A stretch of DNA of 64,000 nt from Dillenia suffruticosa (Eukaryota; Streptophyta; Magnoliopsida; Dilleniales; Dilleniaceae): assembly GCA_033439265.1 (NCBI GenBank), contig JAVTVX010000013.1, forward strand, positions 3,250,501 through 3,314,500, read 5' to 3'. This document shows, piece by piece, positions 1 through 56,068 of the stretch; within the stretch, counting starts at the first letter, position 1, and each line of letters opens with the position of its first letter. Both the position numbers and the translations under genes were made by a program. The notes under the pieces are model-generated. The model had not been told where the DNA came from, did no database searches, and saw only the letters and a program-made list of their open reading frames with translations.

Positions 1-843
1 TTTTTTCCCTCTCTTTATTTTCTTATTATTTATTAGTATTATTTTAATTTACAACAAAATAAAAGCTAAAAGCAGATATTACAAATTTCAATCCAAATAC
101 GTTGAGAATATTCTAAGACCCATAATGGGCAATATTCCTTTTACAATAATTCTCTCTCCTTTGTCGTGTACGTTCCTATTTAGCATATGCCATGCCATTT
201 TTTTCTGGAACACAACCTTGAATCCCTGGGAATGAATCGTACAAAGTTTCTAATCACAACATAAGCCCAGAATACTATCAACTAAATTATTTAAAATCAA
301 AATTTTGATTGTTTGTCACGTGATAATTGATTTTTTCTTTTTTTCCCGACCTTATATCAAAAAAATTGAACACAATACATTTTTTGAGGATATCCCATCA
401 TCTCTTTCTTTGAATTATCAAAACTCCAAAAAAAAAAAAAAGACCGCATCGCGTTCTTAGTGATCAAGAGAGAACACATTTAGAAGCAGCTACACAAATT
501 CCTTGATATTTGATATCACGTTAAGGCAATTAAGTTTTAAAATAATAATTATGAGTGAAATTGAATATTTATAAGTAACCCCAAAAAAAAAAAAAAAGTT
601 TTGTAATACTACGTTATGACATTGCTCCCCTTTCACTCCCTCCATTCTTTTTACCAAACCCAAAACAGGGAAATCTTTCCGACCACTATGCATCTTCTAA
701 ACCAAGTATCTAACTTCCAGGGCATGGCCAATTTTTTCCCAGAAGGCAAAGGAAAAGAAATCAAGAAGAGAAAAGTTAAAAAGGATGAGATAATGAAGCA
801 GCCTTTGATTAATGACTACAACAGAGGTTAGGTTAAGAATGAG
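1..843. other. AT-rich intergenic DNA left of element A
   Basis: No supported gene. The stretch is AT-rich with short A and T runs (for example near 428-442 and 583-597). The short open frames here have no family signature, no intron structure and homopolymer-encoded residues, so I do not call them. The last ten bases (834-843, TAAGAATGAG) are the left copy of the target-site duplication of the adjoining palindromic element. Confidence 0.7.
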
Positions 844-1743
844 GAGTCATGTACCAAAATAACCTAAAAAAAAAAATATTTTTTAAAATAACTCCACTCG
901 AAAAATATTTCCCCAAATAACCCAAATTTATCGGGAGTTAGAGACGCGACACACTGTATCGCGTTTTCAACCCGCGACAACCCGGAGAGAGAGGAGAGAG
1001 AGAGAGAAGAGAGAGAGAGGAGTCCGCGAGGGAGGGAGAGAGGGGAGGAGAGCGGCGGGGGGGTCCGCCGGGGGGAGGGGGCTGGCGGCGGGCGGCGGAG
1101 GGGGGAAGGAGAGAGAGAGAAGGAGGCTGCGGGGGGCAGAGGGGGGAAGGAGAGAGAGAGGGGAGGGGGGGAAGAAGAGAGAGAGGGAGGGCCGCGGGGG
1201 GCGGAGGGGGGAGGGAGAGAGAGAGGGAGGCTGCGGGGGGGGGAGGGAGAGAGAGAGAGGGAGGGCCGCGGGGGGTGGAGGGGGGAGGAGAGAGACACAG
1301 CGGCTCTCCTCCCCCCTCCGCGGCTCTCCCTCTCTCTCTCCTTCCCCCCCTCCACCGCCCGCCGCCAGCCCCCCTCCCCTCTCTCTCTCTCCTTCCCCCC
1401 TCCGCCCCCCCGCGGCCCTCCCTCTCTCTCTCCCTCCCCCCCTCCGCCCCCCCCGCGGCCCTCCCCCTCTCTCTCCTTCCCCCCTCCGCCGCCCGCCGCC
1501 AGCCTCCTCCCCCTGGCGGACCCCCCGCTGCTCTCCTCCCCTCTCTCCCTCCCCCCGCGGACTCCTCTCTCTCTCTCTTCTCTCTCTCTCTCCTCTCTCT
1601 CTCTGGATTGTCGCGGGTCGAAGACGCGACACAGTGTGTCGCGTCTCCAACTCTCGATAAATTTGAGTTATTTGGGGAAATATTTTTCGGGTGGGGTTGT
1701 TTTAAAAAATATTTTTTTTTGGGGTTATTTTGGTACATGGCTC
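844..1743. mobile_element. Palindromic (foldback) MULE-like element A, 900 bp
   Basis: The two halves are inverted copies of each other over almost the whole length. The left end GAGTCATGTACCAAAATAAC matches the reverse complement of the right end (GAGCCATGTACC...) and similarity continues through an AT-rich outer part and a GACGCG...CGCGTC motif into a GC-rich core. The left arm core (about 985-1300) is nearly all G and A; the right arm core (about 1310-1605) is nearly all C and T. The element is flanked by the perfect 10 bp direct repeat TAAGAATGAG (834-843 and 1744-1753). Length of the duplication and long terminal inverted repeats fit a Mutator-like, non-autonomous element. It has no transposase. 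Its long Pro/Ser/Arg-rich open frames on both strands are artefacts of the repeat. Family assignment is inference; the structure and duplication are directly visible. Confidence 0.85.
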
Positions 1744-3716
1744 TAAGAATGAGACTCCCGAGGCCTTTTGCTTTACAAAAGTTCACGGTTCTCACGCAAG
1801 ATTCCAAAGTAAAAAAAGGGGTGATCATGTGCATTCATGCATTATTTTCGGTAGAAAGAGAACATGCTACTCTACTGACTAGAGAGGCTTGTACTATTAA
1901 ACTCGTGAAACAATCGATTTTTCAATATATCAATATATTAAGATGGAGATTTTATACGGAAAATTAAAAAAGAAAGAAATATATGTATACATATAGACGG
2001 CCACAACCAAAAGATCTAAAAAGTAAGAAATGAATGTTCGATAGCAAATGCAAATGCGGCAAGGAATGCATTATTAGTAATGGGTCCTTACGGAAAATAG
2101 TTAATTGAGGTTCAGGCTTGTTGTATAAGTTTCCAACCCTGTATAGCCCATGAGTTAGGGAAGTAGGGATGCTATGACAAACTTAGGATAGGGAGCTTCA
2201 AGAGCCATCGACCCAACAGGTAAATGACTGAATGATTAGTCCATTTAAGTCATCTTTGATATTAGTAGCGGTTTAGCTTTACAACAAAGCAACTAATTAG
2301 AAAATCTATGAAATAAATAGTTTACGTACCAAAAATTAAATATTTAACCATGGTGCGAGTTTTAATATGAACAAAATGTTTAATATATAAAACCCATAAG
2401 CATAAGCACAATGTTTCTATATAGATATACCAAATAATTTTCTTACTTTTTCATTTTTATTAGAGGGAAAAAAAGAAAGGGGCAAAAGCTCTTCCTAATG
2501 GGAAGCAAGAGCTCCCCTAAATTGAATAAGATGATTTTTGAATCGAATTAATTAAAATATAATTTTGAATAAAAATGAGATTATCCAGTACACAAAATAC
2601 TCCCTGACTTAGTGCGAAAGTAAAAAGAGAGTGAACGTATATATACGTAATCTTATACTTTCCTTAATTCTGAATATTAAAAAAAAAAATCTTACGGAGA
2701 TGTTTTCTTCTCTAGATTCATGGTCAAATAAGCACTTGATGTCTAGATCAGACCTAAAGGTCCGACCAATGTGGACTTTGTGAGATACCATGCAATGTTA
2801 ATGTTCACTCCCATGTTTGTGTCCTAAAATTGACTTACTCTCACATGAATAACGCACTTATGAACCTTACCTACCACGAAGATTCAAATCCATGGGCACC
2901 AGTTCTATGCTTTCCAAAACGGCTGCCAACAACCCACAGCCCTAATGGGACACTTGATAGAATTAGAATGTCATGCCTCAGGGGACAGACAAAATGTTTC
3001 TTAAAAGATTTTGGGTCCCTTGAATCGCATGTGGACCAACCCCACATTGTCCTTTCTCTTTTACTAGTGGGTAGTCAAGTTTTGTTGTCACGTCTTCTAT
3101 ACTTGCCCTGCAGTTTCCTTTTTTTTTTGCTGCTTTTTCCATTTTTGCAATGCTATTTTTGTCCACAAAAATAACATATAAGTTATTTATTACTGTAGTG
3201 CAAGAGTGTCGAGTCATGAAGTTAAGGAACGAGACCCTGAACAAGTTCAAGACATTAAAAAAAATGATTGCTAATCACTTAATTACCTTTTGATTGTAAT
3301 GTTCATTTAACTTATAAAAAGTCTATAATAATTGATTTATTATATTGTCATCAAATATATATAAAAAAAAATATGTAATTAATGTAAATTAACCGAAGTT
3401 GAAAATATGGTTTGTCTAAAAGGTTGGTTTATGAAATTCTAGACTACAAATAACCAAAAGAAGCTTTGTCAAATGTTGATTCATAGCTCTAATAATTTTG
3501 CAATTAGTCAAAATTTTGACTAAACCATAAACAAAAACCGATTGATATTTCTCTTTCTGGGCAATGTTATGCCAAAATTAATCGTTGAGGATCCCAAACT
3601 TCCCCCCGCAAATAATAATAATGATGGTGACGATGATGATGAAATAAAATAACCCAAAAAGGTGTTCATTATGCCTTCAACAAGGGAAAGGGATGAGCCT
3701 ATATATATATTTTTTT

Positions 3717-12500: not shown

Positions 12501-14795
12501 CTAAACCGCACTACATTCTTGAATATTGTTCAGGCCAATGTAGGAGATGGGACCATTATAATGAACAATCTTCTTCAGGTTTCTAATCTTAAGCTCGGTA
12601 AACAAAAGATCGTCTTCTCTTTCAATTAGTCCGGAGTGAGTCTAATCTTTAGTTGTTTCATATGTATGGTGGGGCAGCATCTCAAGGACCTCAAGGATCC
12701 AATAATGGAAGGCATTTTGTTGGAGACAGAGAACATGCTTACTCATGGTAGAATGGACCTACCTTTGAGTTTATGCTTCGCAGCACTTAGAGGAGATGAC
12801 CTCTTGTTGCATCAATTATTGAAACGTGGTCTGGATGCAAATGAATCTGACAATACTGGAAGGACTGCCCTGGTCCGTGACTTTTGTTTTTTTGTTTTTT
12901 TAATTTTTGATACAATTTTAAAAGTTAACGGAGCACGGCCTAATTCTTTTTTTTTCTCTCTCTCTCTCTCCTTTTCTTTTTCCATTGCTTTGGAAAAACA
13001 GCATATAGCAGCTTCCAAAGGGAGTGTGGACTGTGTTCTCCTCCTTCTAGATTATGGGGCTGACCCTAATAGTAGAGGTAACTTCTTGCTTTTAAGTTGT
13101 CTTCTTCCAATTTTTCAAAATCGTGGTCAGTACATGTTTCTTTTGTATATTTCTCACGTAGGTCATTGATGTCTTCCAAGTAACACTTTGGTATTTCTTT
13201 CTTGTCTATAGGTTTATGATAGCAACTCGTCTTCTCATATCTTAGGAGTTGATTTTGATGTTGAACTTTTATATATAATTCTTGTCTTTGTTGTATTTGC
13301 TGACAGAGCAACCCTACCATGGTCATATAGTTTACAAAACTTTGTTCTTCCTGTTTATAATATTTGTCAATAATTACACATAATTATTGCTTTCATGAAC
13401 AGATGACAGTTGTTCAGATTGGGATGATTGAAATATCAAAATGAAAATTGTGGAAATTGATAGAGGGGGACACATCACCTTGAGCTTTCAACATCAATTA
13501 GAAAAATATATAATGACCTAATTAATTTTATATAGAAGTCTAGGGCAATTTATCAGCCTTTTAAATGCTAATCAACCCTTGCCTTCATATTGTTCGCTTG
13601 CCCACATGTAGTATATTTATTCAAGTTTATACAACATAATTGTGCTTGTATATGTATGTATAGATGATAAGGATGATACAGTGTCCCCTTGTCAACTATC
13701 TTATGGACTTTATGCCGATTTACATAATTGAGATTTTCATGCTTCTGATTTATTTTATGTGCCACCCTTTGATATTGGATCTGCTATTCAACTTCCTGTA
13801 CCCTTTGCTTTTCCCCAAATTTTTGGAGCCTAAATTTCTGATTGTCTTGGCATAATATTTTTTATTTTCTCCATGCAGACTCTGAAGGGAGTGTGCCACT
13901 ATGGGAAGCCATTTTGGGAAGCCATGAAAAGGTGATCAAACTGCTGATAGAAAATGGGGCTGATATAAGTTCCGGGAATGTGGGTCATTTTGCCTGCACT
14001 GCTGCCGAGCAAAACAACTTGGGCTTGCTCAAGGAAATTGTTCATCATGGAGGAGATATAACATGTCCTAATAGCAATGGCATGACTGCTCTTCATGTTG
14101 CAGTGAGTGAAGGCAACGCAGAAATAGTTCAGTACCTTCTAAACCAAGGCGCAGAAATAGATAAACCTGACATCCATGGATGGACTCCCAGAGACCTAGC
14201 AGACCAACAAGGGCACGATGACATAAAAGAACTTTTCCAATCATGCAAAGAACCTAAAACTCAATCTGTCATTTCCATTCCTGAGCTGCAACGTGGGATC
14301 CATTTCCTTGGTAGATTCACAAGTGAGCCAACAATCTGTCATGTGCCTCATGAAGCCTCGTCACCAGCTGTTGATGCCTCTTGGAGTCACAACCGTCCTA
14401 GGCGTAGGATTATTAACTTCCACAACTCACTCTTTGGCATTATGTCTGCTGCTCATAGAGGGGATAAAGATTCACTCTTGTCAGTAAATCAGACAAGTAT
14501 TTCAGTCAATGGCAGAGTTTACCCTCCTAGAGTGACTATTGGCTGTCCTGAGAAGGGAGAAGTTACAGGCAAACTTGTGCTACTTCCTACTACCTTTGAC
14601 GAGTTGCTTGGCATTGGCAAGCAGAAATTTGGCATTGTGCCCAGTAAAGTTCTAAGCAGAGAGGGCGCTGAAATTGATGATATAGTGTTGATCAGAGATG
14701 GTGACCATCTTATTTTTGTTAGTGATGGTGGAAGAGAAGAACAAAGAAACCATGATAAGGGAGATTGTGGGATTAATGGTTGTGGGGCTGGATAA
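9551..14795 (+). CDS. AKT1: Shaker-type inward-rectifier K+ channel, AKT1-like
   Basis: Predicted 891-residue plasma-membrane channel for K+ uptake. Coding exons: 9551-9732, 10664-11029, 11105-11162, 11282-11599, 11846-12091, 12186-12284, 12360-12578, 12678-12872, 13002-13077 and 13879-14795; all junctions keep frame. The N-terminus ([15 protein letters not shown]) and S1-S6 core are AKT1-like; S4 is [14 protein letters not shown], and the pore reads [12 protein letters not shown] with the K+-selectivity GYGD near residues 261-264. A cyclic-nucleotide-binding-like domain follows ([20 protein letters not shown] onward), then ankyrin repeats (about 525-700, e.g. GRTALHIAASKG) and a C-terminal KHA domain (about 800-880, ending RDGDHLIF). 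Arabidopsis AKT1 is slightly shorter (about 857). The family is activated by CBL1/9-CIPK23 through the ankyrin region. ATG 9551 was chosen because it restores the usual length before CGQ; ATG 9584 is an alternative. Confidence 0.95.
11197..11240 (+). repeat. Homopolymer pair T25-C19 in AKT1 intron 3
   Basis: An uninterrupted run of 25 T is followed directly by 19 C inside the 119-base intron 3 (11163-11281), about 40 bases before the acceptor. It enlarges the polypyrimidine tract of this intron. Exact lengths are unreliable in any assembly. Confidence 0.85.
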
Positions 14796-15274: not shown

Positions 15275-16580
15275 AGGTAGTGTTTAGGAGGGGAAAAAAA
15301 AAAAAAAAGAAGGTTTAAAGTTTATTCACTAACCATTTACTCCATTTTTTCCATGCTTTATATGTGAAATTTAATTAAGTATATTATAAAGGGGGTAAAT
15401 GCACACCCATCTCTGGAGTGATTAAAAGTATTACGCTAACCCAAAGTAAAATAATAAACCAAAATTAATGTCATTTGTTTTAAAGGGAAAAACAATTTTT
15501 TTTTTGAGCGAAAACTTAAAATAAATGGATGTAGTAAGAGCAAATTCAAATAAATTGTTTTTTTTAGAGAGTTAAAACTAATATATTTAGTTTTAAAGAG
15601 AAAATTTAATTAAGAGCGAAAATATAAATTATATTATTTTGAAAAAGAGAAAATTAATATGTTCAGTATTTGAAAAGAAAAAAAATTAAATTAGATTATT
15701 CATTTTAGATAAAGAAAAATCGGTAAGTATAGTTTCAGCGATAGAAAATTGAAACTGGGTTATCTTTTAGAGAGAGAAAATTAATATATATATATTTTAT
15801 TTTTTGGCAAAAGAGAGAAAATTGTTAGGTTTTAGAGGGGTATAGTTTACCCATGTCTTCAAAAAATTATGTAATTTATATTTTAGGTAGCTTTTGGTAT
15901 GAGATAAAGTGTTAGAGAGAAAAGGTTGAAGGGGAATGAATATATAGTTAATATTTTTTCATTCTACGTGTGTTTGATATGCACATTAATATTTTAGTAA
16001 TTTTTACTCCTATATAATTTGCCTATAGTTTTTCTCTTTTTTTAATTGAACTTATACAAATTATATCTATTTAAAACTAAATACATTAATTTTCTTTCTC
16101 TAAAAAAAAATAATTTGCTATATTTTCTCTCTCTAAACATATTTGCTTTAAATTCTCTCTCTAAAAAATAAAATTCAATTTTATTTCTTTTAAAACTAAC
16201 AATATTAATTTTCTCTCGACAAAAAAATCTATTTAATTTATATTTTCTCTCTCTAAATATATTTATTTAGATTTTCTCTAAAAAATTATTTAAATTATTT
16301 TAAATATTGTCTCTTTAAACACATTGATTTTAAATTTTATCTTTCTAGAAATCTAAATTAAAATTTTCTCTCTCTAAAATTAAATTCATTATTTTTACTC
16401 TATAAAAATCAATTTAATTTCTATTTTTTTTATTTTAAGTTTTCTTTTTCTAAAAAACAAATTTAAGTTAAGAACATTATTTTTCTTTCCTTAAATACAT
16501 TTTGTGACTTTGTAAATTTTTAAACATTTTATAAGATATTTTAAAATACTTTTCAGCCAAACATCGCCAACGTAACATTT
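15275..16580. repeat. Large AT-rich inverted repeat made of AGAGAGAAAATTAATAT-like units
   Basis: The left part (about 15480-15850) repeats variants of TTTTAGAGAGAGAAAATTAA at intervals of roughly 50-80 bases. The right part (about 16030-16480) repeats the reverse complement (TTAATTTTCTCTCTCTAAA). Together they can form an imperfect foldback around a less repetitive centre (about 15860-16030). Ends resembling hAT/MITE termini occur: AGTGTTTAGGAGG near 15280, TAGCTTTTGGTATGAG near 15890, and the oppositely oriented CAGCCAAACATCGCC near 16556. The limits and family are uncertain; one nested or two adjacent MITEs are both possible. Confidence 0.5.
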
Positions 16581-29600: not shown

Positions 29601-31833
29601 CTTGAATAATTAAGATGTGCTTTGATGTGGAGTTGCAGATTTCTGATGCTTTTGCTATTTTAAGTGTGCATTAGTGACCTTTAATGCCAGAAAAACTTTA
29701 TTGGCTATTACATTCAAATTGTATAGTTTGTTTACTGGTTGGAGAAATTTGTGAGGAAAAGCAATTTAAAACGTGAAGCACATTTTATATGCATTAAAAT
29801 CCCCTATTTCATTGGCATATCCTAATCTGGGCGTATTCTATTTTTAAAAGCTTGATGTCTGTGATTTGTAGCAATATCCATGCTTCATGCTTGGTTGGAG
29901 TATCACACCTTTGAAAATTTTTTTGTTGTCGTTTGTATATTCTCTCCTGGACTTTTCATCATGATGTCCAAAAATTTGTAGGAAATTTGGTGTGTATTTA
30001 TCAAACTGACTCACTGAGATCATCTGCAGCTATTTACTCTACTTTGAAACTTAGATGCTTATGGAAAATTTTCATTTGTCTTCAACTTCAAGCATGAGGA
30101 ATAGTTTTTCTCACCACTAATTATTCTCTTTGTGTGCTCTCGGTTTGTAGTTTTTTTCTTAAAATCTTTCATTCTTCTTCTGCAGCACTTGAAGGAAGAT
30201 ATGAAGCTAAGTTACCTGGCTCAGGAACTGATAGCTACCGACCGCTTAGCACCTCAATCATGGTAGCTCCAACTAACTTTTTTATGTACAATACAGTGTG
30301 CCACAAGTTTTGTTTTATAGTGCAGCATTTTGGCTGACTTTTATGAGCTACATTTTGGCTCATTCATTATTTTATCATGTTTGACCAGTTCATATCCTTA
30401 GCTAGTTTGCCACAGGAGATAATTTGACATTCTGCTCTGAACTTGGGTTTTTTTCTATCTCCATTGTTGGGGAAGGACTTTGGCTCTTTTCTCATTCTTG
30501 TGGCCCGGAAATTGTTATTTCAGACATGGGCATGTATTTGCAATAGAAGGCCAGACATTTCAGTGAGGTTTGAAAAGCAAAAGAGCCATGATTTGCATCG
30601 ACCATAGTGACAGGGATCTTGACTCCTATCCACCCTACCAATTGAGTGAAAAATACTTGTTTGTGTTAACCATTTATCATGCTACTTTTTACCCTACCTG
30701 TTTAATAGTTCTTCCTAACATGGCTGCAGCATCCACAAAGGTGTCAAATATTCTAGAGATCTGATTGGGCTATTTTTGTGCTAACATGCAACCAAGCCAT
30801 GAAGCCCTTTTGTGGTTAATGCATCTGTGTGCTGTTCCTTTTCTTATCCATCATGAGTATTAGAATGTTATATATGGCTTGCTATTGAATCAAATATGCA
30901 GGTGTGCCATGGGGAATTGCTTCAGCTTGCAGAAAGACCATGAAACCGCTCTGAAAAATTTCCAGCGCGCTGTACTGCTTAGTTCAAGATTTGCTTATGC
31001 GCATACACTTTGTGGTCACGAGTATGCCAAGCAAACTATTGTGTTAAATTAACTTGGAATTTTTTTCCATTGAAAATATTATTTGATTGGGAATTCAACT
31101 GTTTCTACAGATATGTAGCCTTGGAAGATTTTGAGAATGGAATAAAGAGCTATCATAGTGCGCTGAGAGTCGACAGTAGACATTACAATGCTTGGTATGG
31201 ACTTGGAATGGTCTACCTTCGACAAGAGAAATTTGAGTTCTCTGAGCATCACTTCCGAATGGCTTTCCGAATTAATTCTCGATCCTCTGTCATCATGTCT
31301 TATCTTGGAACAGCTTTGCATGCCTTACGGGTAGATTTTCTTTCTTAAATTTTAGAATTGTCTTTAGCCAGTTTCCCTTCCCTTTATTAAGTTTTTTTGT
31401 TTCTCTTGATCAACAGAGACCTCTGGAAGCTTTAGTAATGATGGATAAGGCCATCTTGGCAGATAAGAAAAATCCTCTCCCTATGTATCAGAAGGCCAAC
31501 ATATTGGTGACCCTTGAAAAATATGACGAAGCCTTGAGGGTCTTAGAGGAACTTAAAGAATTTTCTCCTGGTGAAAGCAGTGTATACGCATTGATGGGCA
31601 GAATATATAAGCTGCAAAACTTGCATGAGAAGGCCATGCTTCATTATGGACATGCTTTGGACTTGAAACCTTCTGCAACTGATGTTGCTACCATTAAGGT
31701 GAAAACATATGCTCCGAATCTTCCTTTTCCATGTATGGTAGCTTTAGCTCATCTTTAGTTGCTAATCTCTTATTATGAACAGGCTGCCATTGAAAAGTTG
31801 CTTGTGCCAGATGAATTAGAAGACAGTTTGTAG
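17473..31833 (+). CDS. HBT: Anaphase-promoting complex subunit 3 (CDC27B/HOBBIT)
   Basis: Predicted 756-residue TPR subunit of the APC/C ubiquitin ligase, which targets cyclins and other cell-cycle proteins in the nucleus. Sixteen coding exons, all in frame: 17473-17577, 21468-21540, 21659-21768, 21999-22045, 22644-22741, 24464-24774, 25537-25683, 26295-26511, 27216-27442, 27517-27582, 29064-29183, 30186-30262, 30902-31021, 31111-31330, 31417-31698, 31783-31833. The N-terminus MEAILVDCVQSSLRHF and N-terminal TPRs (ATDRRKSA..LDPLLWAAYEEL-like block, exons 4-5) match plant CDC27B. A Ser-rich linker (exons 6-9, with QAPRRKFVDEGKLRK) precedes an array of TPRs from about residue 460 to 735, for example HYNAWYGLGMVYLRQEKFEF. 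Length is close to Arabidopsis HOBBIT (about 744). Introns are unusually long (intron 1 is 3.9 kb) and hold several repeats. Confidence 0.95.
20695..20762 (+). repeat. SINE-like fragment (Au-SINE type)
   Basis: The stretch from GGAGGTAAGGCTGTGCCCAT through TGCACCCCACAGGCCTAATG to AAGCACTAGG follows the body of plant Au-type SINEs as I recall them (AGGTAAGGCTGCGTACA... then GTGCACTGGG). It lies in HOBBIT intron 1 and is diverged. No tail or target duplication was recognised. Confidence 0.45.
20945..21004 (+). repeat. 30 bp tandem duplication
   Basis: The unit containing GATAAACTTTGGATGTCAAG occurs twice with a period of exactly 30 bases and no mismatch over the core. It is a recent duplication inside HOBBIT intron 1. 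Confidence 0.85.
23288..23731. mobile_element. MITE with long terminal inverted repeats in HOBBIT intron 5
   Basis: The left end GAGCATGTTTGGCAGAG and following TCTTCTTATCTTCTCCTTTT match the reverse complement of the right end, which reads GAGTGCCCGTTTGGCAGCG followed by a similar TTCTTTTCTCCTTATAAGG block. The inverted repeat is about 40 bases at each end. Inside there is a smaller AGGAGAAG/CTTCTCCT hairpin near 23570-23615. The GTTTGGCA end fits hAT-like MITEs, but I could not find a clean 8 bp duplication, so the family is open. Confidence 0.7.
26535..26690 (+). repeat. SINE 3'-end motif followed by A-rich and (AT)n tail
   Basis: ACAACAACAAACCGAGCCTT then AAACCCAATAATTTGGGGTC and GGCCATTTGAGATAC closely follow the module widespread in plant SINEs (CCTTAATCCCA..TTGGGGTCGGCTA). 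It starts about 20 bases after the donor of HOBBIT exon 8. A-rich sequence and an (AT)n run (about 26671-26690) follow. Confidence 0.55.
28631..28868. mobile_element. Tourist/PIF-Harbinger-like MITE candidate in HOBBIT intron 10
   Basis: The left end TAA-GGGCCTGTTTGGGAAACC then TCAAC corresponds to the reverse complement of the right end (TTA-AGGGTCCATTTAGAAAAG then TTGAGG), giving a 238 bp element. GGGCCTGTTTGG next to a TAA/TTA trinucleotide is typical of Tourist MITEs. The flanking trinucleotides are TAA and TTA, so the 3 bp duplication is imperfect. Confidence 0.55.
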
Positions 31834-33017: not shown

Positions 33018-33026
33018 ATGGTCCCA

Positions 33027-34106
33027 GAGACATGTACTGAAATAATAAAAAAAAAGATTTTTTAAAACAACCCTAGACGAAAAAAGTTTCTCCACATAAC
33101 CCAAATTTGTAGGGAGTTAGAGACGCGATACATTGTGTCGCGTCTTCAACCCGCAACAGTCTAGAGAGAGAGAGAGGAGTCCGCGGGGGAGGGAGAGAGG
33201 GGAGGAGAGCGGCAGGGGGAGGGAGGAGCGCGGCTGGGGGCGGCGGGGGGAAGGAGAGAGAGGAGAGGACTGCGGCGGGGTGCGGAGGGGGGAGGGAGGG
33301 AGAGAGGGAGGGGGAGTGCCGAGGAGGGGGGAGGGAGGGAGAGAAAGAGGGGAGGGCGGCGGGGGGTCCGCCGTGGGAGGGAGGGAGGGAGAGAGAGAAA
33401 GAGGGGAGGGGTTGGCGGCGGGCGGCGGGCGGCGGGCGGCGGAGGGGGGAAGGAGAGAGAGAGGGGAGAGGCACGGCGGGGTGCGGAGGGGGGAGGGAGG
33501 GAGAGAGAGAGGGAGAGCCGCGGGGGGGGCGGAGGGCCGCGGGGTGCCGAGGGGGTAGGGAGAGAGAGGAGGGCCGCGGGGCCGGAGGGGGGAGGAGAGC
33601 CGCTGTGTCTCTCTCCTCTCCCTCCGCCCCCCCGCGGCTCTCCCTCTCTCCCTTCCCCCTCCGCCCCCGTTGTGTCTCTCTCCTCCCCCCTCCGCCCCCC
33701 GCGACCCTCCCTCTCTCCCTCCCCCCTCCGCCTCCGCTGTGTTGCTCTTCTCCCCCCTCTGCCCCCCCGCGGCCCTCCCTCTCTCTCTCCCTCCCCTCTC
33801 CGCACCCCGCCGCGCCCCTCCCCCTCTCTCTCCTTCCCCCCTTCGCCGCCCTCCGCCAGCTGCGGTCCTCCCCTCTCTCTCCTTCCCCCCGCAGCCCCCT
33901 GCCGCGCTCCTCCCTCCCCCTCCGCCCCCGCTGCTCTCCTCCCCTCTCTCTCTCTCTGGACTGTCGCGGGTTGAAAATGCGACATAGTGTGTCGCGTCTC
34001 CGACCCCTCCGACCCCCAACAAATTTGAGTTATTTAGAGAAATTTTTTTCGACACGAGTTGTTTTAAAAAATTTATTTTTTTCTGGATCATTTTGGTACA
34101 TGTCTC
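33027..34106. mobile_element. Palindromic (foldback) MULE-like element B, 1080 bp
   Basis: Second copy of the family of element A. The left end reads GAGACATGTACTGAAATAAT and the right end, reverse-complemented, GAGACATGTACCAAAATGAT. AT-rich outer arms are followed by GACGCG...CGCGTC motifs (33122-33144 and, decayed on one side, 33976-33998). The left core is purine-rich (about 33163-33600) and the right core pyrimidine-rich (about 33610-33960). A 9 bp direct repeat with one mismatch flanks it: ATGGTCCCA (33018-33026) and GTGGTCCCA (34107-34115). There is no transposase. Long Pro/Ser/Arg-rich frames on both strands are repeat artefacts. Confidence 0.85.
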
Positions 34107-34141
34107 GTGGTCCCATTGCCCTTATTTGTGCACTTTTGTAC

Positions 34142-34817
34142 CGATTCATTTACGGAAATGACTTCAAAAAAAATGAAAATTCCTAAAAACACCTCCCACG
34201 AATAAAATTCCAAAAGTGAACCAAATTTATCGAGTGTTGCAAACTCGACCAACATATTCGAGTCTTCAACACTTGACCAACAGTTTGTCAAGTGTCGAAG
34301 ACTCGACAATCCGCGGTCGAAATCCTAACCCTAAGATTTCTTCCAAAGTGAGCCTTATTTCCTCATCTTCACCGCCACATGATGCCTACACTGGCCGCCA
34401 TTTCCAGAAACAGTTCCTGCCCATGTTAAATTTTTTTTGCAGAGGTTTAATTTTGCAAGTTAGAGAGAGAGAGAGAGAGGAAGGTTGACGACCAGTTATT
34501 CTCAAACTTCATTGAATTCCATACAGCAACTTCTGCTTCTTCGTCGTCTTCTTCTCCTTCTTCGTCTGTTCTTGTTGCTGATCTTCTTCATCTGCACTTC
34601 CAGAAACAGTCCCTGCCCACATCTCCACCCCCGGCTCACCTCCTTTCCTCAAAACTTGTTTGTCGAAGGTTGAAGACTCGACTATGTAGGTCGAATCTTT
34701 AACACTCAACAAACCTAGATCACTGTTAGAATTTTTTTTTTTTTTTTTTTTTTCTTTCGCGGGAGGCCCTTTTAGGAATTTTTTTTTTTTTTTTGAAGTG
34801 ATTTTCGTACGAGACTC
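34142..34817. mobile_element. Element C, diverged relative of elements A and B
   Basis: The left end (TTTACGGAAATGACTTC..., AATTCCTAAAA, CCTCCCACGAA) matches the reverse complement of the right end (GTACGAAAATCACTTC..., AATTCCTAAAA, CCTCCCGCGAA). Inside each arm lie TCGAGTCTTCAA-type motifs. The inner left arm CCAAATTTATCGAGTGTTG aligns with CCCAAATTTATCGGGAGTTA of element A, so it is a sibling with CTCGA in place of CGCGA. Candidate 9 bp duplication with one mismatch: CTTTTGTAC (34133-34141) and CTTTTGCAC (34818-34826). The middle carries CT-rich sequence and a diverged direct repeat containing TTCCAGAAACAG (near 34400 and 34598). Confidence 0.65.
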
Positions 34818-48110: not shown

Positions 48111-50155
48111 TGATTGAGGGATTCGACGGATCAGAGAGGATTTGAGTTTTACTTCCAAGTATGTAATGTCGCGAGTCGGTGTTTTCGCCTTGGAATGTGA
48201 TTTCGATATTTATTTATGGGACCTTGCTTCCATTTTTTTAATAGTGTTTTTTTTCTTTTCTTTTTTTTTTTTTCGTTATCTTGTGTGACAAGAATGGGCA
48301 AAATCCACGACCTTACTTGAACAGGATCTGTTCCATTTGCGCGTACCTCAGAATGGGCAAAGTCCGAATGGGAAAATTCGGATTTTTATCCGGGTGGGCG
48401 GATCTTTTAGTAGCATCTAAATCCTGATCCGGTGGGCCAGAATTATTTTTTTTTCATTTGTTGATGTCTAAACTTGTAAATTGTTATTAATTAATTTATT
48501 AATACATATTTTGTCTTTATTATGGTATTAATTTTAGACTCAAAAAATTATATATATATAATTTAAATAAATAAATATAAAAATATATAAAGAGTGAAAA
48601 TACGTAAAAATTATAAAAATAAATAAATCTTAATTTTGATTTTATAGTATTAATTTTTAAAGGAAATGTTGATTTTAGTTTAATTATACGATAAATAGTT
48701 ATCAAATTTTACAAAGAAAGAAGGCAATAGAGAATTCAAAATTTGTTTAAAATGGTGAGACGATGGAGAAAAGGAATGGTTGAGAACTAATACAGGGAAG
48801 AGGAACCAAATTCCGTGGATTTGGAGGGTTTGGAATCCGAATCTCGTTCGGATTTGGGATTCTAAACCCGAAGCCCAGAATCCCAAAGGCGGCAGCGATT
48901 TTAAAATCCTCTCTCCACCGCGACGCTCGACACGATCGATAAAGCGATTCTCTGAACAGAAACCCTAGATATTCTTCACCAATAAAACCTTACCTAACTC
49001 TCTACCAACCTTCTCCCTCTATCAGATTTCGCACTGGGCTTAGGATTTGTTCTTGTTTTATTGACGACGGATTCTACGCAGACATTGATCCTTGTTTTGC
49101 GGTGAAGTAGGTTGCAGGGTTCGATTCTCGTCTTTCTTGCAAATTTTGTTCGTTGGATTGATTTCTAATGTTTGATTATATTAATCTTTACATGCTTTGT
49201 TTTTGTTGTTGTTGCTTCTGCTGTTGTTGTTTCTTTGGACTTGCGAAATCGAGTAGCAGCTTTAGATTGAGAGAGAGAGAGCGCATTTGACGGTACACAT
49301 TAGAGAGAGCGCATTTGACAGTACATATTAGAAGGCGCTAAATCGATGTTTTAGTGACTTCTGCATAGTTTTAGTTCTCCATAAGGATTAGTTTTTAAGC
49401 TTTTCATGTTTTATTTATCAAAAAAACTACTTGATTCTTGTTCTGTTGTTAACTTTTGGTGGTATTAAGGTTCAAGCTAACCAACCAGAACCTTTTGAGG
49501 TGCTGTTTGATTCAATTAAATATGGGTTAGTATGGCTCTAGCTCAAAAGTAGAGCAGAGTGGGTGTGAGGATCAACTTTGGTGCATATGACTTAACATGC
49601 TTTAAAGTACTTCTGTCGAGAATCTTTTTGGGGCTATTGGAGGATTAGTTATCTACTAGAATTCAACTCAGGCAAAACTTAATGGCAAATTACTTCGGAT
49701 CACTTGAAGAAATCCACTTTTTCAAGTAATTTGTTCCACACAGGACTAGGGAGGGTAGCAACACCGATCGCACCCGTCTCCCTTTTTGACCAGCAAAAAT
49801 AAAAGAAAGAAAATATCAACAATTGAGTTAGCACATCAGGTTTCACCACATTTCTTTGAGTTCTCTCTAGTCATTCTCTAGTTCTTGAAGCGTCTTCAAC
49901 TTGTATGTTGCCACTTTGTTTGAAAGGGCATGAAGTATTTTTTTTTTTTTTTAGGGCAGGGAGACATAATTGAACAATCTTAGTCTATTTCCCCTCATCT
50001 TATGCAGAATTGGGCACTTTCTTTTTTTTTTTTGCATTAGTTTCTAGTGTAGCATATTTGCATTGCTGTGCTGTGTAGTTAAGTTTTTTCTTGCTGGTGT
50101 ATGTTAAGCTTTTAATTATTTTTGTGCTTGACTTGCAGGCTATTCAGCTTGATTA
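48111..50155. other. Divergent promoter region of RPT6 and ClpC, with ClpC leader
   Basis: RPT6 starts leftwards at 48110 and ClpC rightwards at 50156. Four TGGGC cores (48295, 48354, 48395, 48433) lie in the RPT6 side. The ClpC leader probably begins near 48900-49080, contains AAACCCTAG (48960 area), and has a large intron ending at the acceptor CTTGCAG (50138); the donor near 49108-49112 is ambiguous. A 28 bp tandem repeat built on GCGCATTTGAC (49281 and 49309) lies in that intron. Confidence 0.5.
49277..49332 (+). repeat. 28 bp tandem repeat in the ClpC leader intron
   Basis: GAGAGCGCATTTGACGGTAC and GAGAGCGCATTTGACAGTAC occur with a period of 28 bases, two copies with few mismatches. Confidence 0.8.
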
Positions 50156-53100
50156 ATGGCTAGAGTTCTCGGTGCAAATATCCCAACCAGAGTTGGTATA
50201 AGTCATGATCATATTCAAGGATCTGGGAGGGAAAAAAACACTGTCAAAATGTTTTCTAGCATTCAGGCACCTCGACTAAGATTAAAAGACTTCTCAGGAT
50301 TGCGATCAACCAATGCTTTAGATGATTTCCTAAAATCTCGTAATGATTTTCATTCTAAGGTGGCATCTGCAATTTCTGTCCGGCAAGGAAAAGCCAGCCG
50401 AGGTGTAGTTAAAGCAATCTTTGAGCGCTTCACCGAAAAGGCAATAAAAGTTATCATGCTTGCACAAGAGGAGGCACGTCGCCTTAGTCACAATTTTGTT
50501 GGCACAGAGCAGATACTGTTGGGTCTTATTGGTGAGGGCACAGGCATTGCTGCTAAGGTTCTCAAATCGTTGGGAATTAATTTAAAGGATGCACGAATTG
50601 AGGTGGAGAAGATCATTGGGAGGGGTAGTGGTTTCGTTGCTGTGGAGATTCCATTTACAGCCCGTGCAAAACGTGTCTTGGAGTTGTCACTAGAGGAAGC
50701 TCGCCAACTTGGTAATACAAATCCCATTCTCAACCTACACCTGCACAAACTTTATCGCTTGAGATGGTGTCTCAGTGATTTCTTTCTACTTGTTTCCTTC
50801 AAGTATTCTGCTTTTATTGAAGCTTGTCATAGTTCTCTTTATTCTGGTTAGGGAATGCTTGCTCCTAAGTCATAAATCAGATAGGATCAAACACATTGCC
50901 AGCATGTAGAGTTGAAGAATTTTTAGGAGGGACAGACATAAAAAGGATAGATCCGTGCGAACATATTCCTAAAACTGAATCACAAGAAATTTGGGATGTG
51001 TGGGAGGTCTTGTTGCCTAAGCGCAATACCGCGTAGATTGATGATATTTATCAACCTTTTATGAGGAGATAGGATCAAACGTTGCTAATTTATGTGCATA
51101 ATGAGTATGTGATGCAGATGCTACCCATTTTCTTCAAATGAAGTGACTTTTACCATCCACCTGTGATGATGGGTTGCCTATTTTGGTCACGTATTAGAGC
51201 TTTTTTTCCCCACTCCTATTTCTACTTCTTCCCTCTTTGGGATATGTGTATAGCATTTAATGTGTATACTTTCTTGAATATAACAGGCCACAACTATATT
51301 GGATCTGAGCACTTGCTTCTAGGATTGCTTCGTGAGGGTGAAGGTGTAGCAGCCAGTGTTCTTGAGAATTTAGGTGCTGACCCTAGTAACATTCGTACAC
51401 AGGCAAGTAGTATCAGAGCTTTCTAATGGAAATCTTTGGTCTTAACATAGTTTTACTGAATTCATCAAAATGATAGGTTATCCGTATGGTCGGTGAGAGC
51501 ACTGAGGCTGTCGGTGCTAGTGTTGGTGGAAAAAACAGTGGCAATAAGATGCTGACACTGGAAGAATATGGTACTGATCTGACAAAACTAGCAGAAGAGG
51601 TATTCTCTAATGTCTTTACTATTCTGTGAGCTGTGCAATTCGTAGCAGGAAATTGTTAATTTTATTTTCTTTGTTTTTTTCAGGGTCAGTTGGACCCTGT
51701 AGTGGGAAGACAGCCGCAAATTGAACGTGTCATCCAAATTTTGGGTCGGAGAACTAAAAATAATCCCTGCCTTATTGGGGAACCTGGAGTTGGGAAGACA
51801 GCAATTGCTGAAGGTCTTGCTCAACGAATTGCTGATGGTAATGTCCCAGAAACAATCGAAGGGAAGAAGGTTTGTACTCAATATTGTGCATAAAATTTGT
51901 GGGTGTATTAAAACTTTTAATAGTGACAGGGATTTGAAAACAAATGGAATGTTTTCTAGTAGCTGATATCTGGGTTTTGGATAATGGGTTATAGTCTGCG
52001 AGTCACTTCTACTATATGCCATAACCACTAGAATGGAAGCTGTATTGTTGGAGTTCCAACCCCCCATGGAGTTGTTTTATGGAGAACATGGATTCATATG
52101 TGTGGCTGTGATTCATATTATGGTTTTTATCTTACACAGCTGTGCGGTTGATGTGAATATGTTGTATCATTGTTTTTTATTGTTGGGAGATTATAGGCAA
52201 GTCCATCAACAGCATGTTATGTTAAGGATGCTACTATTCTAAAATAAGCTTATTTAGTTGACTATGTTTGGAAAAAAAATGAACATCAATATTAGTCATT
52301 ATCATGTTATAAACTAAAAGTTTATGGTTTCATTTTCTTATGTGATGTAGGTTATAACTCTAGATATGGGTCTTCTTGTTGCTGGCACAAAATATCGTGG
52401 AGAATTTGAGGAAAGGCTAAAGAAGCTAATGGAAGAGATCAAACAGAGTGATGATATTATACTCTTTATTGATGAGGTTCATACTTTAATTGGAGCAGGA
52501 GCAGCAGAGGGGGCAATTGATGCTGCAAACATCTTAAAACCAGCTCTCGCAAGAGGAGAGCTGCAGGTAAATTTGTTTGACATAAGCAGATATTCTCTGT
52601 TATGGACAATACTTGATCCGTGGCTATGGCAATGTTACTTGGATGGGAGATGCCACAATATCTTTTCTTAGAACCCTGTCATCTTGGTCTTCAAATTTTC
52701 AGCAAGTTGGTGCCTCTTAAAAATGCAAAATGAAAGAAGAACACCGAGGAGGTGAAGTAGCTATAAAAAAACAAAATGCTTTGAACTATCCAAATTGTTC
52801 CGAAAGAATGACAAGAAAGTGAAAGGGAGAGCATTGAGTTTCTGAGATTGATAATTTTCAATGTGAATGGTGGTTATATAATGAGGTTTCATCATCCAAT
52901 GTTTGTTAATTGTTACTTGTGGCAGTGATAATTAATTCACTCAATAAAATGGCCAACTTTGTTGCTTAGGGCTTTCAAGAACTATACTATTACTGATTGT
53001 AGTAGGGTCTTTTGTGATAAGCCTCTTTTTCCTAGTCTCTTGTCATGGGGAAATTGTTGTGTCCTGAGAGTTCCATCCGAGCCTACAGATGCATGGAGCT

Positions 53101-56068
53101 CTTGTGGCTTTGTGCATTTACTATTCTCTCATAACTGGGTTGTAAACTCTGGAACCTTCCTGCAAGTTTTTAACTTAAAGCCATTTAGGCCCCAATTGTT
53201 AAATGTTTTAAAGTAATGATATTGAGTACTACTAAGTTTCTTGTGGGCTCTCTAGCCTTAGAACTTGCCTGCAAGTTTTTTACTTAAAGCCAGTTAGGCT
53301 CCAAGCATTAGATGTTTAAGGTGAGGGTGTTGTACTGCTAATATTCTTGTGGGTTTTCTAGCCTCGGAACATGTCTTATGTCCTATTAATCTTCTTGAGG
53401 GTGCTTTAGTCCTGTATGTGTCATGTGTCCTGGAAGTTTTGTGCTAGGCTGCACAGTGATATTAAAGTTTGAGGGCCAATATTTGAGTTTCTTCAATTAG
53501 TACTCTATCAAATCAAGGTCTACCTAAATATTTTCTTTTGCTACCTTATTCTTCCTATTGTGGCCCTTGTCTTCCTAAAACCTTCTATGATCAAAAAATT
53601 TCTCTGAGACTCTTACTGTTTACAGTTAGAATGAAGTCCTTTTTTTCTGGTTACTTGTTAGTTCAGTTGCTTATGGTATCAAGTTTTTGTACACATACTG
53701 GCAGGCAGCTTTATATGCTTCTCTACTTGTTAGCCTCCTCTTGTGGATCTGAGTAATAGCCTCCTAATTGGTACCCTCAATGAGACCTAAATAGCCATGA
53801 TGATTTCAGTATTTATTGGTTCAATGTTTGTGTTTATTGTACTGGTCAGTGTGAATATCTGTCTATGTTTATTTTGATTGCTATCAGAATTAATTACATT
53901 TGGTTTTTGAATTCAGGCTTCTGGAAATGATATGGTCAAACATCTTGTCATGTAATCTAGGTGACTTCATCTTGCAATTTTAATTGATTAGAGGCTAAAT
54001 TATTGATCTTCAAAATTTCTTTGATGATTCAGTGTATTGGGGCTACAACACTAGATGAATACAGACAGCACATCGAAAAAGACCCTGCCTTGGAAAGGCG
54101 ATTTCAGCCGGTCAAAGTTCCTGAACCAACTGTGGATGAAGCTGTACAAATTTTGAAGGGACTGCGAGAGAGGTATGAGATACACCATAAGCTTCAGTAT
54201 ACAGATGGAGCCATAGAAACTGCAGCTCACTTGTCTCACCAGTATATCAGGTACACAAAGAAAGCTGCTGCCCGGTAGTCATACCAGTTTCATGTTTCAT
54301 TTTCATTCCATGATATTTAATAAAAGCTGATCCTTGGGTAATAAATGAAGGGGAAAAAATGATAATAGCGAGGAGTCATATTCAAATATCTGTAAGCTGC
54401 ATGATATCCATTTAAATGTGAATCACATTGGCCAGCCTTATTCTACAATCCGTGACTAAATTTTTAATCGTGTTTGTTTTTTCTTCTATTATTTCTCTTG
54501 ACTGTGTATTCTAATGGAATTTCTGTGTTGTGCATTTCAGTGATCGTTTTCTGCCTGATAAAGCAATTGATTTAATTGATGAAGCAGGTTCTCGAGTTCG
54601 CCTTCGTCATGCCCAGGTATGAGCTCTTGGTAATGACAGTTCCTTTCTTTTAGCTTCTTGTCCTGAATTCTATTGAGTTAATGGTTCCTTCTTTGTAGCT
54701 TCCTGATGAAGCCAAAGAGCTTGAGAAAGAGTTGAGGCAGATCACGAAAGAGAAGAATGAAGCAGTTCGTAGCCAAGAGTTTGAGAAGGTAATTGTTGTG
54801 AGGTGAATTGAAGAGATATTTATCACGCTTTTCCTTACATATCATATTCTTTTGCTTTCATCAATATGCTTATACGGTAATTTGTATAGGCTCAAGAATT
54901 ACGTGATCGGGAGATGGACCTAAAGGCTGAGATCTCTGTTTTGATAGATAAAGGCAAGGAGATGAGCAAGGCCGAGACTGAGGCAGGCAATATAGGTCCA
55001 GTTGTTACAGAAGTTGACATTCAGCACATTGTTGCTTCTTGGACTGGTATCCCCGTGGATAAAGTGTCAATTGATGAATCTGACCGCCTCCTTAAAATGG
55101 AGGAGACTCTTCACAAGAGAGTCATTGGACAGGATGAAGCAGTCAGAGCCATCAGCCGTGCCGTTCGCCGTGCTCGTGTTGGGCTCAAAAGCCCTAATAG
55201 GCCAATTGCTAGCTTCATTTTTTCTGGTCCAACTGGTGTGGGAAAATCTGAGTTAGCTAAGGCACTTGCTACTTACTACTTTGGTTCTGAAGAATCCATG
55301 ATCAGGCTTGATATGAGTGAATTCATGGAGAGGCATACAGTTGCGAAGCTGATAGGTTCTCCACCTGGCTATGTTGGTTACACTGAAGGGGGCCAGCTGA
55401 CTGAGGCTGTTCGGCGCCGTCCTTATACAGTAGTACTCTTTGATGAGATCGAGAAGGCACATCCTGATGTCTTCAATTTGATGCTTCAGATACTTGAAGA
55501 TGGCAGGTTAACAGACAGCAAGGGTAGAACTGTGGACTTCAAGAACACTCTCTTAATTATGACCTCAAATGTTGGAAGCAGTGTGATTGAGAAGGGAGGT
55601 CGTCGAATAGGATTTGATCTTGACTATGATGAAAAGGATAGCAGTTATAATAGAATCAAGACCTTGGTTATAGAGGAGTTGAAGCAATACTTCAAGCCCG
55701 AGTTCTTGAACAGATTGGATGATATGATTGTTTTCCGTCAGCTCACTAAGCTTGAGGTGAGGGAGATAGCTGAGATAATGCTAAAGGAGGTTGTTCAGAG
55801 GCTTAAAGGTAGAGAGATAGAGCTTCAGGTGACGGAGAGATTCAAGGATAGAGTGGTTGATGAAGGCTACAACCCAAGTTATGGAGCTAGGCCTTTGAGG
55901 AGGGCCATCATGAGGCTTTTGGAGGACAGTATGGCGGAGAAAATGCTTGCTGGAGAGATCAAAGATGGAGATTCAGTCATTGTGGATGTAGATTCAGATG
56001 GTATGGTGACTGTGCTCAGTGGTAGTGGTAGTGCTCCTGAATCACTAGCGGCAGCATTTGTAGTCTAA
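50156..56068 (+). CDS. CLPC: Plastid Hsp100/ClpC-type ATP-dependent chaperone
   Basis: Predicted 919-residue stromal chaperone that feeds substrates to the Clp protease and works in protein import. Exons: 50156-50711, 51287-51402, 51477-51599, 51684-51869, 52351-52566, 54033-54250, 54541-54616, 54699-54788, 54890-56068; frame is kept. About 85 N-terminal residues look like a transit peptide and the mature part begins near [11 protein letters not shown] (89 on). Two Clp-N repeats follow, then AAA-1 with GEPGVGKT (297-304) and LFIDEVHT (D368-E369), a short UVR/M-type coiled coil (exons 8-9), and AAA-2 with GPTGVGKS (640-647) and [12 protein letters not shown] (D712-E713). The ClpP-docking GRRIGF loop is present. 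Intron 2 (51403-51476) uses a GC donor (CAG|GCAAGT). The C-terminal tail is somewhat shorter than Arabidopsis ClpC1 (about 929 residues in all). Confidence 0.96.
52567..54032 (+). other. 1.5 kb intron 5 of ClpC with a degenerate tandem repeat
   Basis: The intron contains units of about 106-109 bases (see the repeat entry). I see no gene inside. Confidence 0.6.
53147..53395 (+). repeat. Degenerate tandem repeat, period about 106-109 bp
   Basis: CCTGCAAGTTTTTAACTTAA (53159) recurs as CCTGCAAGTTTTTTACTTAA (53268). TTCTTGTGGGCTCTCTAGCC (53238) recurs as TTCTTGTGGGTTTTCTAGCC (53344). About two and a half copies lie in ClpC intron 5. Confidence 0.75.

Follow-up and report, generated by a model that had tools for sequence, protein, structure and literature searches.

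Within a 64,000-nucleotide stretch of the Dillenia suffruticosa genome (hereafter, the window), a palindromic element designated B raises the question of whether it is a genuine transposon copy and, if so, which machinery moves it. An earlier note had assigned B to the same palindromic family as a second element of the window, A, leaving the superfamily unnamed and a neighbouring relative, C, unmentioned. The coordinates, tips and flanks that it gave for B are borne out (Table 1). The evidence discussed below indicates that B very probably belongs to a foldback family of non-autonomous Mutator-like elements (MULEs), with MULE transposase from other elements as its presumed mobiliser.

Table 1. 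Positions of elements A, B and C and of their parts in the window.
Feature	Positions	Strand	Description
Element B	33027..34106	.	1080 bp; tips GAGACATGTAC.../...GTACATGTCTC
B left target duplication	33018..33026	.	ATGGTCCCA; 8/9 vs right copy
B right target duplication	34107..34115	.	GTGGTCCCA
B left outer arm	33027..33165	+	
B left subterminal palindrome	33122..33144	+	GACGCGATACATTGTGTCGCGTC; 21/23 to family word
B purine-rich half core	33166..33604	+	85% purine; diverged tandem units
B pyrimidine-rich half core	33605..33956	+	13% purine
B right outer arm	33957..34106	-	
B right subterminal palindrome	33976..33998	-	minus-strand GACGCGACACACTATGTCGCATT; 20/23 to family word
Element A	844..1743	.	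900 bp; B's family
A left target duplication	834..843	.	TAAGAATGAG; 10/10 vs right copy
A right target duplication	1744..1753	.	TAAGAATGAG
A left subterminal palindrome	943..965	+	21/23 to family word
A right subterminal palindrome	1623..1645	-	23/23 to family word
Element C	34143..34817	.	675 bp; diverged relative, different core

Elements A and B can be aligned end to end, and each is an inverted repeat over most of its own length. They have the purine-to-pyrimidine core in common, as had been claimed, with left half cores of 85-90% purine and right half cores of 13%. Because this core is of low complexity, the likeness of the two elements is judged on their arms alone. Without the GA/CT core, the arms of A and B differ at 16.3-17.6% (0.163-0.176) of 129-132 sites, and blastn identities between them are 77.6-82.8%. 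This pairwise comparison places B in the palindromic family of A and excludes a likeness limited to the GA/CT core. The duplication flanking A is 10 bp and exact. That of B has the 9 bp ascribed to it, with one mismatch, so the duplication stands but is not a perfect one. Among 200,000 pairs of positions drawn at random from the window, a match of 8/9 or better occurs at a frequency of 0.000265 and a 10/10 match at 0.000015. Both the flanks and the duplications of A and B differ, in agreement with the proposal that they are two independent insertions.

Element C begins 36 bp to the right of B and has inverted ends on the A/B plan; the left arm of A also matches 34143-34270 and 34785-34817 within it. 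Its flanks agree at 8/10 positions at zero offset, or by eye at 8/9 if the left end is shifted by one base, and it holds an inverted duplication of 49 bp. As a query, C yields 79 matches in the 40 scored of 50 candidates, the best being 81% over 42-539 of its 675 bases. Elsewhere in the window, a further inverted repeat pair lies at 15496-15601 and 16066-16171 (106 nt, 74% complementary, 464 nt apart). Exon-like frames are also present at 10656-14792 (potassium-channel core, KHA and ankyrin), 30983-31755 (TPR repeats) and 50153-56065 (Clp ATPase), domains that are in keeping with a plant genome.

The family extends well beyond the window. The genome searched comprises 596 Mb in 37 contigs, and B as a query gives 117 matches in the 40 scored of 903 candidate places, with palindrome strands and pieces counted apart. 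Across the whole genome, the tip CATGTACCAAAATAACCCC occurs 63+61 times with at most two mismatches, against 5+4 for its reversed control, and the 23-bp arm palindrome GACGCGACACACTGTGTCGCGTC occurs 397+392 times at the same tolerance, against 0+0. Each count is far above its control, and a lack of further genomic copies, which would have counted against the family, is thus excluded. Since GACGCGACACACTGTGTCGCGTC is nearly its own complement, one site can be counted on both strands, and the true number of sites lies between about 395 and 789. At two sites per element, the family would comprise roughly 200-400 elements. The palindrome has no match in viral contigs, and neither the tip nor the palindrome word was found in the literature. 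The 17-base tip occurs at 11 places in bacterial genomes; these are taken as chance rather than as family copies, with just 17-28 matching bases at the word among the blast matches listed (all 11 with the left arm of A, part of them with its right arm).

Target duplications bear on transposition. Forty loci, A among them, were fetched, and their tips were set by alignment without regard to the flanks. The 34 loci with usable tips at both ends, together with B and C, give 36 elements; L032, L049, L051, L052, L055 and L056, in which one or both tips were poorly placed, were excluded. By eye, the excluded L052 has flanks CTGTTCTCG/CTGTTCTTG. With at most one mismatch, 16 of the 36 elements have a 9-bp duplication and 13 a 10-bp duplication, 29/36 in total, at equivalent ends. 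Two of the 36 show a 5-bp match, and none shows one of 6, 7, 8, 11, 12 or 13 bp. These counts support the view of the earlier note that the ends called for A are true transposition ends. At this standard, no duplication is present in seven of the 36 (L024, L029, L034, L036, L039, L043 and C). The flanks of L026 and L030 are 97-98% alike, which marks them as one insertion later duplicated along with its surroundings; taken as one, they leave duplications in 28/35. It is highly improbable that B is a never-transposed purine/pyrimidine satellite or local hairpin, with a likeness to A that stems from low-complexity cores or segment duplication: the core is indeed of low complexity and packed with diverged tandem units, and L026/L030 do lie in a duplicated segment, but the arms are homologous outside the core, A and B differ in flanks and duplications, most elements carry duplications at equivalent ends, and L026/L030 are the sole pair with matching flanks among the 34 fetched loci compared.

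The members of this family share a characteristic anatomy. The 35 elements other than C span 729-1324 bp (median 1071), a size that argues against MITEs, which are small elements of a few hundred base pairs. All but one of the 35 are rich in purines in the left inner half and in pyrimidines in the right (34 of 35). Both half cores are filled with diverged tandem units, and their mean self-similarity peaks weakly (0.485-0.501, at lags of mostly 38-49 bases, against an average of 0.471). Folded as single-stranded DNA, A reaches -478.4 kcal/mol, compared with -196.4 +/- 6.9 for 20 shuffles; B folded as RNA gives a single, stand-alone value of -826.7. G-quadruplex-type runs number 4 and 2 per strand in A, 5 and 3 in B, and 1 and 1 in the remaining window. 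Long open frames cross the A and B cores in several reading frames on both strands (864-1967 and 33073-34186). These frames are probably artefacts of the low-complexity sequence, although gene finders could mistake them for genes, and B apparently codes for no protein of its own.

These features determine how B is classified. Its family shows inverted repeats built of internal repeats, a hairpin fold and little unique DNA between the arms, as in foldback elements. A and B have long terminal inverted repeats, and the 9- or 10-bp duplications fall within the range of 8-11 bp given for MULEs (PMC6446971). With elements that code for MULE transposase, the family has its ends, and its ends alone, in common. 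Together, the duplications and these common ends identify B as a non-autonomous, foldback-type MULE.

If a single master with two settled arms had produced the family, left arms would be expected to group with left arms. Instead, in 407 of the 465 pairs formed by 31 elements, each element's two arms cluster with one another (405 under an alternative gap rule); when arms were paired at random 300 times, this number averaged 151.9 and peaked at 262. Omitted from this test were C, the duplicate L030 and three hybrids (L053, L057 and L058). In the same 31 elements, the arms of one element are a median distance of 0.151 (15.1%) apart. Yet in the set of 36 elements, the nearest relative of a left arm is its own partner in only 3. 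Our reading is that the arms were homogenised in source elements and then decayed independently. The arms give no support for a CpG-methylation signature, as C-to-T or G-to-A changes affect 190 of 1514 CpG positions (12.5%) and 370 of 2861 other C/G positions (12.9%). Each hybrid joins one family arm to another arm ending in GGGTTAT(A/G)TTCC or similar, and is flanked by a duplication without mismatch (9 bp in L053 and L057, 10 bp in L058). Three hybrids with clean duplications indicate that the machinery tolerates unlike arms.

Candidates for this machinery are present in the same genome. Of 737 candidate places for the MULE transposase domain, 150 were scored and 20 of these fetched. Inverted ends with A/B-like tips, 6.3-8.4 kb apart, enclose nine of the 20: L060, L061, L063, L064, L068, L069 and L072, as well as L062 and L070, which have other palindromes. 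The remaining 11 have no such ends around the domain. By eye, 9-bp duplications flank L060, L062 and L069 (exact) and L063 and L072 (one mismatch), and 10-bp duplications flank L061, L064, L068 and L070. The best matches between A/B-family arms and MULE ends are 71-82% over 94-140 bp; judged by sequence, the ends of the A/B family are homologous to those of the transposase-coding elements. The protein of L061 combines the domains MULE, DBD_Tnp_Mut and SWIM, and a separate frame of this element encodes a plant mobile domain. Among the proteins scanned, the plant mobile domain is also found in L063 and L070, and DBD_Tnp_Mut falls slightly under the cut-off in L062 and L070. These MULE copies are mutually 94-97% alike across long stretches and are thus comparatively young. 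At L074:273-1057, close to a degraded MULE domain, two tips resembling those of the family (GAGTCATGTTTCG / GAGTCATGTTCCG) enclose a small GA-rich interior.

Shared ends, duplications, many copies and outer-arm homology to the ends of transposase-coding elements are direct observations. The mobiliser itself would be either the transposase clade observed here or a lost closer relative. Chances are roughly equal that the family was moved by an autonomous element of its own, now lost or unread, rather than by the MULEs seen here. The A/B palindromes are unlike those of the two MULE families, the A/B copies are old by their arm distances compared with the closely similar MULE copies, and one narrow pattern, in which the A/B palindrome is joined to the MULE continuation, matched at 2 places, each of which continues as in the palindromic family. 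Neither this pattern nor the 20 of 150 scored MULE places that were read revealed an element that codes for transposase and carries the A/B palindrome. On the other side, the tips and outer arm are homologous to MULE ends, the two groups show the same mix of 9- and 10-bp duplications, and the three hybrids each carry one foreign arm between clean duplications. A 4.1-kb member, L080, has the family tips and a perfect CAATTTTAG duplication; its interior is 87% alike to L079 over 1657 bases (2060-3704), and by eye alone no transposase was recognised in its open frames. Direct derivation of B by deletion from the plant-mobile-domain MULE is rejected, as the palindromes differ and the ends are 71-82% alike rather than near-identical.

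Under the preferred reading of B as a non-autonomous foldback MULE, a MULE transposase from other elements would recognise the arms through the tip plus the subterminal region and would cut at GAG.../...CTC. The element would then be joined to a target whose strands are cut 9 or 10 bp apart, and repair of the staggered target would leave the flanking duplications. Copying of one palindrome arm onto the other, we infer, would keep the arms alike, and the grouping of own arms favours this reading. Counting against it are the seven of 36 elements that lack a clear duplication, the 11 of 20 MULE places that lack such ends, the small number of left arms (3 of 36) nearest to their own partner and the failure of the narrow search to reveal a transposase-coding element with the A/B palindrome.

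The subterminal region itself contains palindromes. In 20 of 24 ends, one to five short palindromes with arms of about 9 pairs or more were found, against averages of 0-0.3 in dinucleotide shuffles; four ends (the right arms of B, L053, L057 and L058) have none under this filter. The palindromes start about 85-120 bp from the tip in A/B, C and two MULE families. For the A/B family, 63 of 70 arms were used, the other 7 having too weak a palindrome; their majority sequence, TTTGTCGGGAGTTGGAGACGCGACACACTGTGTCGCGTCTTCAACCCGCGACAAA, forms a palindrome of 55 bp in which two mismatches are nearly fixed. Visually, this sequence is similar to the MULE palindrome TTTGTCGCGGGTTGAACCCGCGACAAA with a second palindrome inserted mid-way. 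Palindromes of the A/B family are unlike those of the two MULE families. Stems differ among related families yet remain paired.

Whether both halves of a palindrome change together was compared with shuffles. The nine MULEs supply 34 palindromes, 15 of them distinct, which were selected by a pattern fixing four bases per side. In this set, 98.7% of cells are paired against 89.9% when shuffled, 17 cells changed on both sides against 6.7 expected, and the covariation score is 0.306 against 0.135 +/- 0.025 (each 0 of 500 shuffles). Two of the five measures are not above shuffles, namely double-change pairs (337 of 500) and pair types (478 of 500). Moreover, most of the contrast is between two families and hence represents few events. 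In the six arms of A, B and C, 84.8% of cells are paired against 78.4% in shuffles (8 of 500), double-change pairs are at the shuffle level (2 against 1.7; 286 of 500), and the covariation score is not clearly higher (52 of 500). Stem changes within the A/B family are mostly one-sided, and compensating changes inside its palindrome are therefore unsupported.

Two explanations of the palindromes can be weighed. They could be functionless, made and renewed, like the whole palindrome, by hairpin-mediated template switching or gene conversion, an account to which we give an even chance. Inversion at several scales (the whole element, the 55-bp block and the 49-bp inverted duplication of C), the one-sided stem changes and the likeness of an element's own arms are in its favour; the distance from the tip is nevertheless more regular across families than random repair suggests. 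A more speculative and rather improbable alternative is that the palindromes serve as family-specific docking sites for a dimeric element-encoded protein, either the transposase or the plant mobile domain protein. Both halves would have changed jointly as site and protein co-evolved, and the foldback family would parasitise this code. A comparable logic, not descent, is seen in VANDAL elements of Arabidopsis, in which the MULE-encoded protein VANC has non-coding-DNA target motifs that vary between related elements (PMC5735166). These motifs, described as YAGTATTAC/T, are not 21-mer palindromes, and VANC is a different protein, which makes the parallel an analogy only (PMC5735166). Capture of the plant mobile domain by MULE transposons has been described, with an anti-silencing role proposed as speculation; the reported cases in grasses and Amborella are fusion proteins (PMC5418596), in contrast to the separate open frame beside the transposase here.

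Foldback MULEs are already known in plants and animals, as exemplified by MuTAnT, FARE, Jittery, Muta1 and Tm1. According to its description, MuTAnT of Medicago truncatula is a foldback MULE of 292 bp whose inverted repeats measure 144 bp; it has 218 related copies and a transposase-coding relative, makes 9-nt duplications and inserts into TA microsatellites (PMC4486113). It resembles the B family as a plant foldback MULE with 9-nt duplications and a transposase-coding relative, and differs in its TA-microsatellite insertion, its shorter length and a description that gives no purine/pyrimidine core (PMC4486113). The same source describes long inverted ends for FARE1 of Arabidopsis and Jittery of maize, and counts FARE, a foldback group whose palindromic repeats are long, among the MULEs as now classified (as described in PMC4486113); compared by description rather than by sequence, FARE1 and Jittery are like the B family in their long inverted ends. 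Muta1 of Aedes aegypti is reported as a MULE termed a type 2 foldback element, with subterminal repeats in its TIR, 8- or 9-bp duplications and over 300 non-autonomous derivatives (PMC5225508). It shares with the B family the foldback MULE form, subterminal repeats in the ends and many non-autonomous derivatives. However, the palindrome of Muta1 is the tip motif of 10 bp, and direct repeats of 12 bp make up its subterminal repeats (PMC5225508), unlike the 21-55-bp palindromes within the arms described here. Tm1 of root-knot nematodes, as reported, is a Mutator/foldback family whose inverted repeats are composite and whose duplications span 8-10 bp, most often 9 bp; its members are mostly non-autonomous (PMC3169594). 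These properties are like those of the B family; a 13-15-bp tandem motif, low copy number and an animal host distinguish it (PMC3169594).

In the open-licence literature, judged by title and abstract start, no description of the B family was recognised. Against that literature, the family is a previously undescribed member of the known foldback MULE kind. Its ends are exactly defined, and it is linked to relatives that code for both a transposase and a plant mobile domain protein. Hairpin-forming copies could give rise to small RNAs. The points worth following are the palindromes, with stems that differ between families yet are paired, and the grouping of own arms, which shows that palindromic arms do not evolve independently. 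More broadly, palindromes that occupy a similar place but differ in sequence from family to family point to a testable code by which MULE ends may be recognised.
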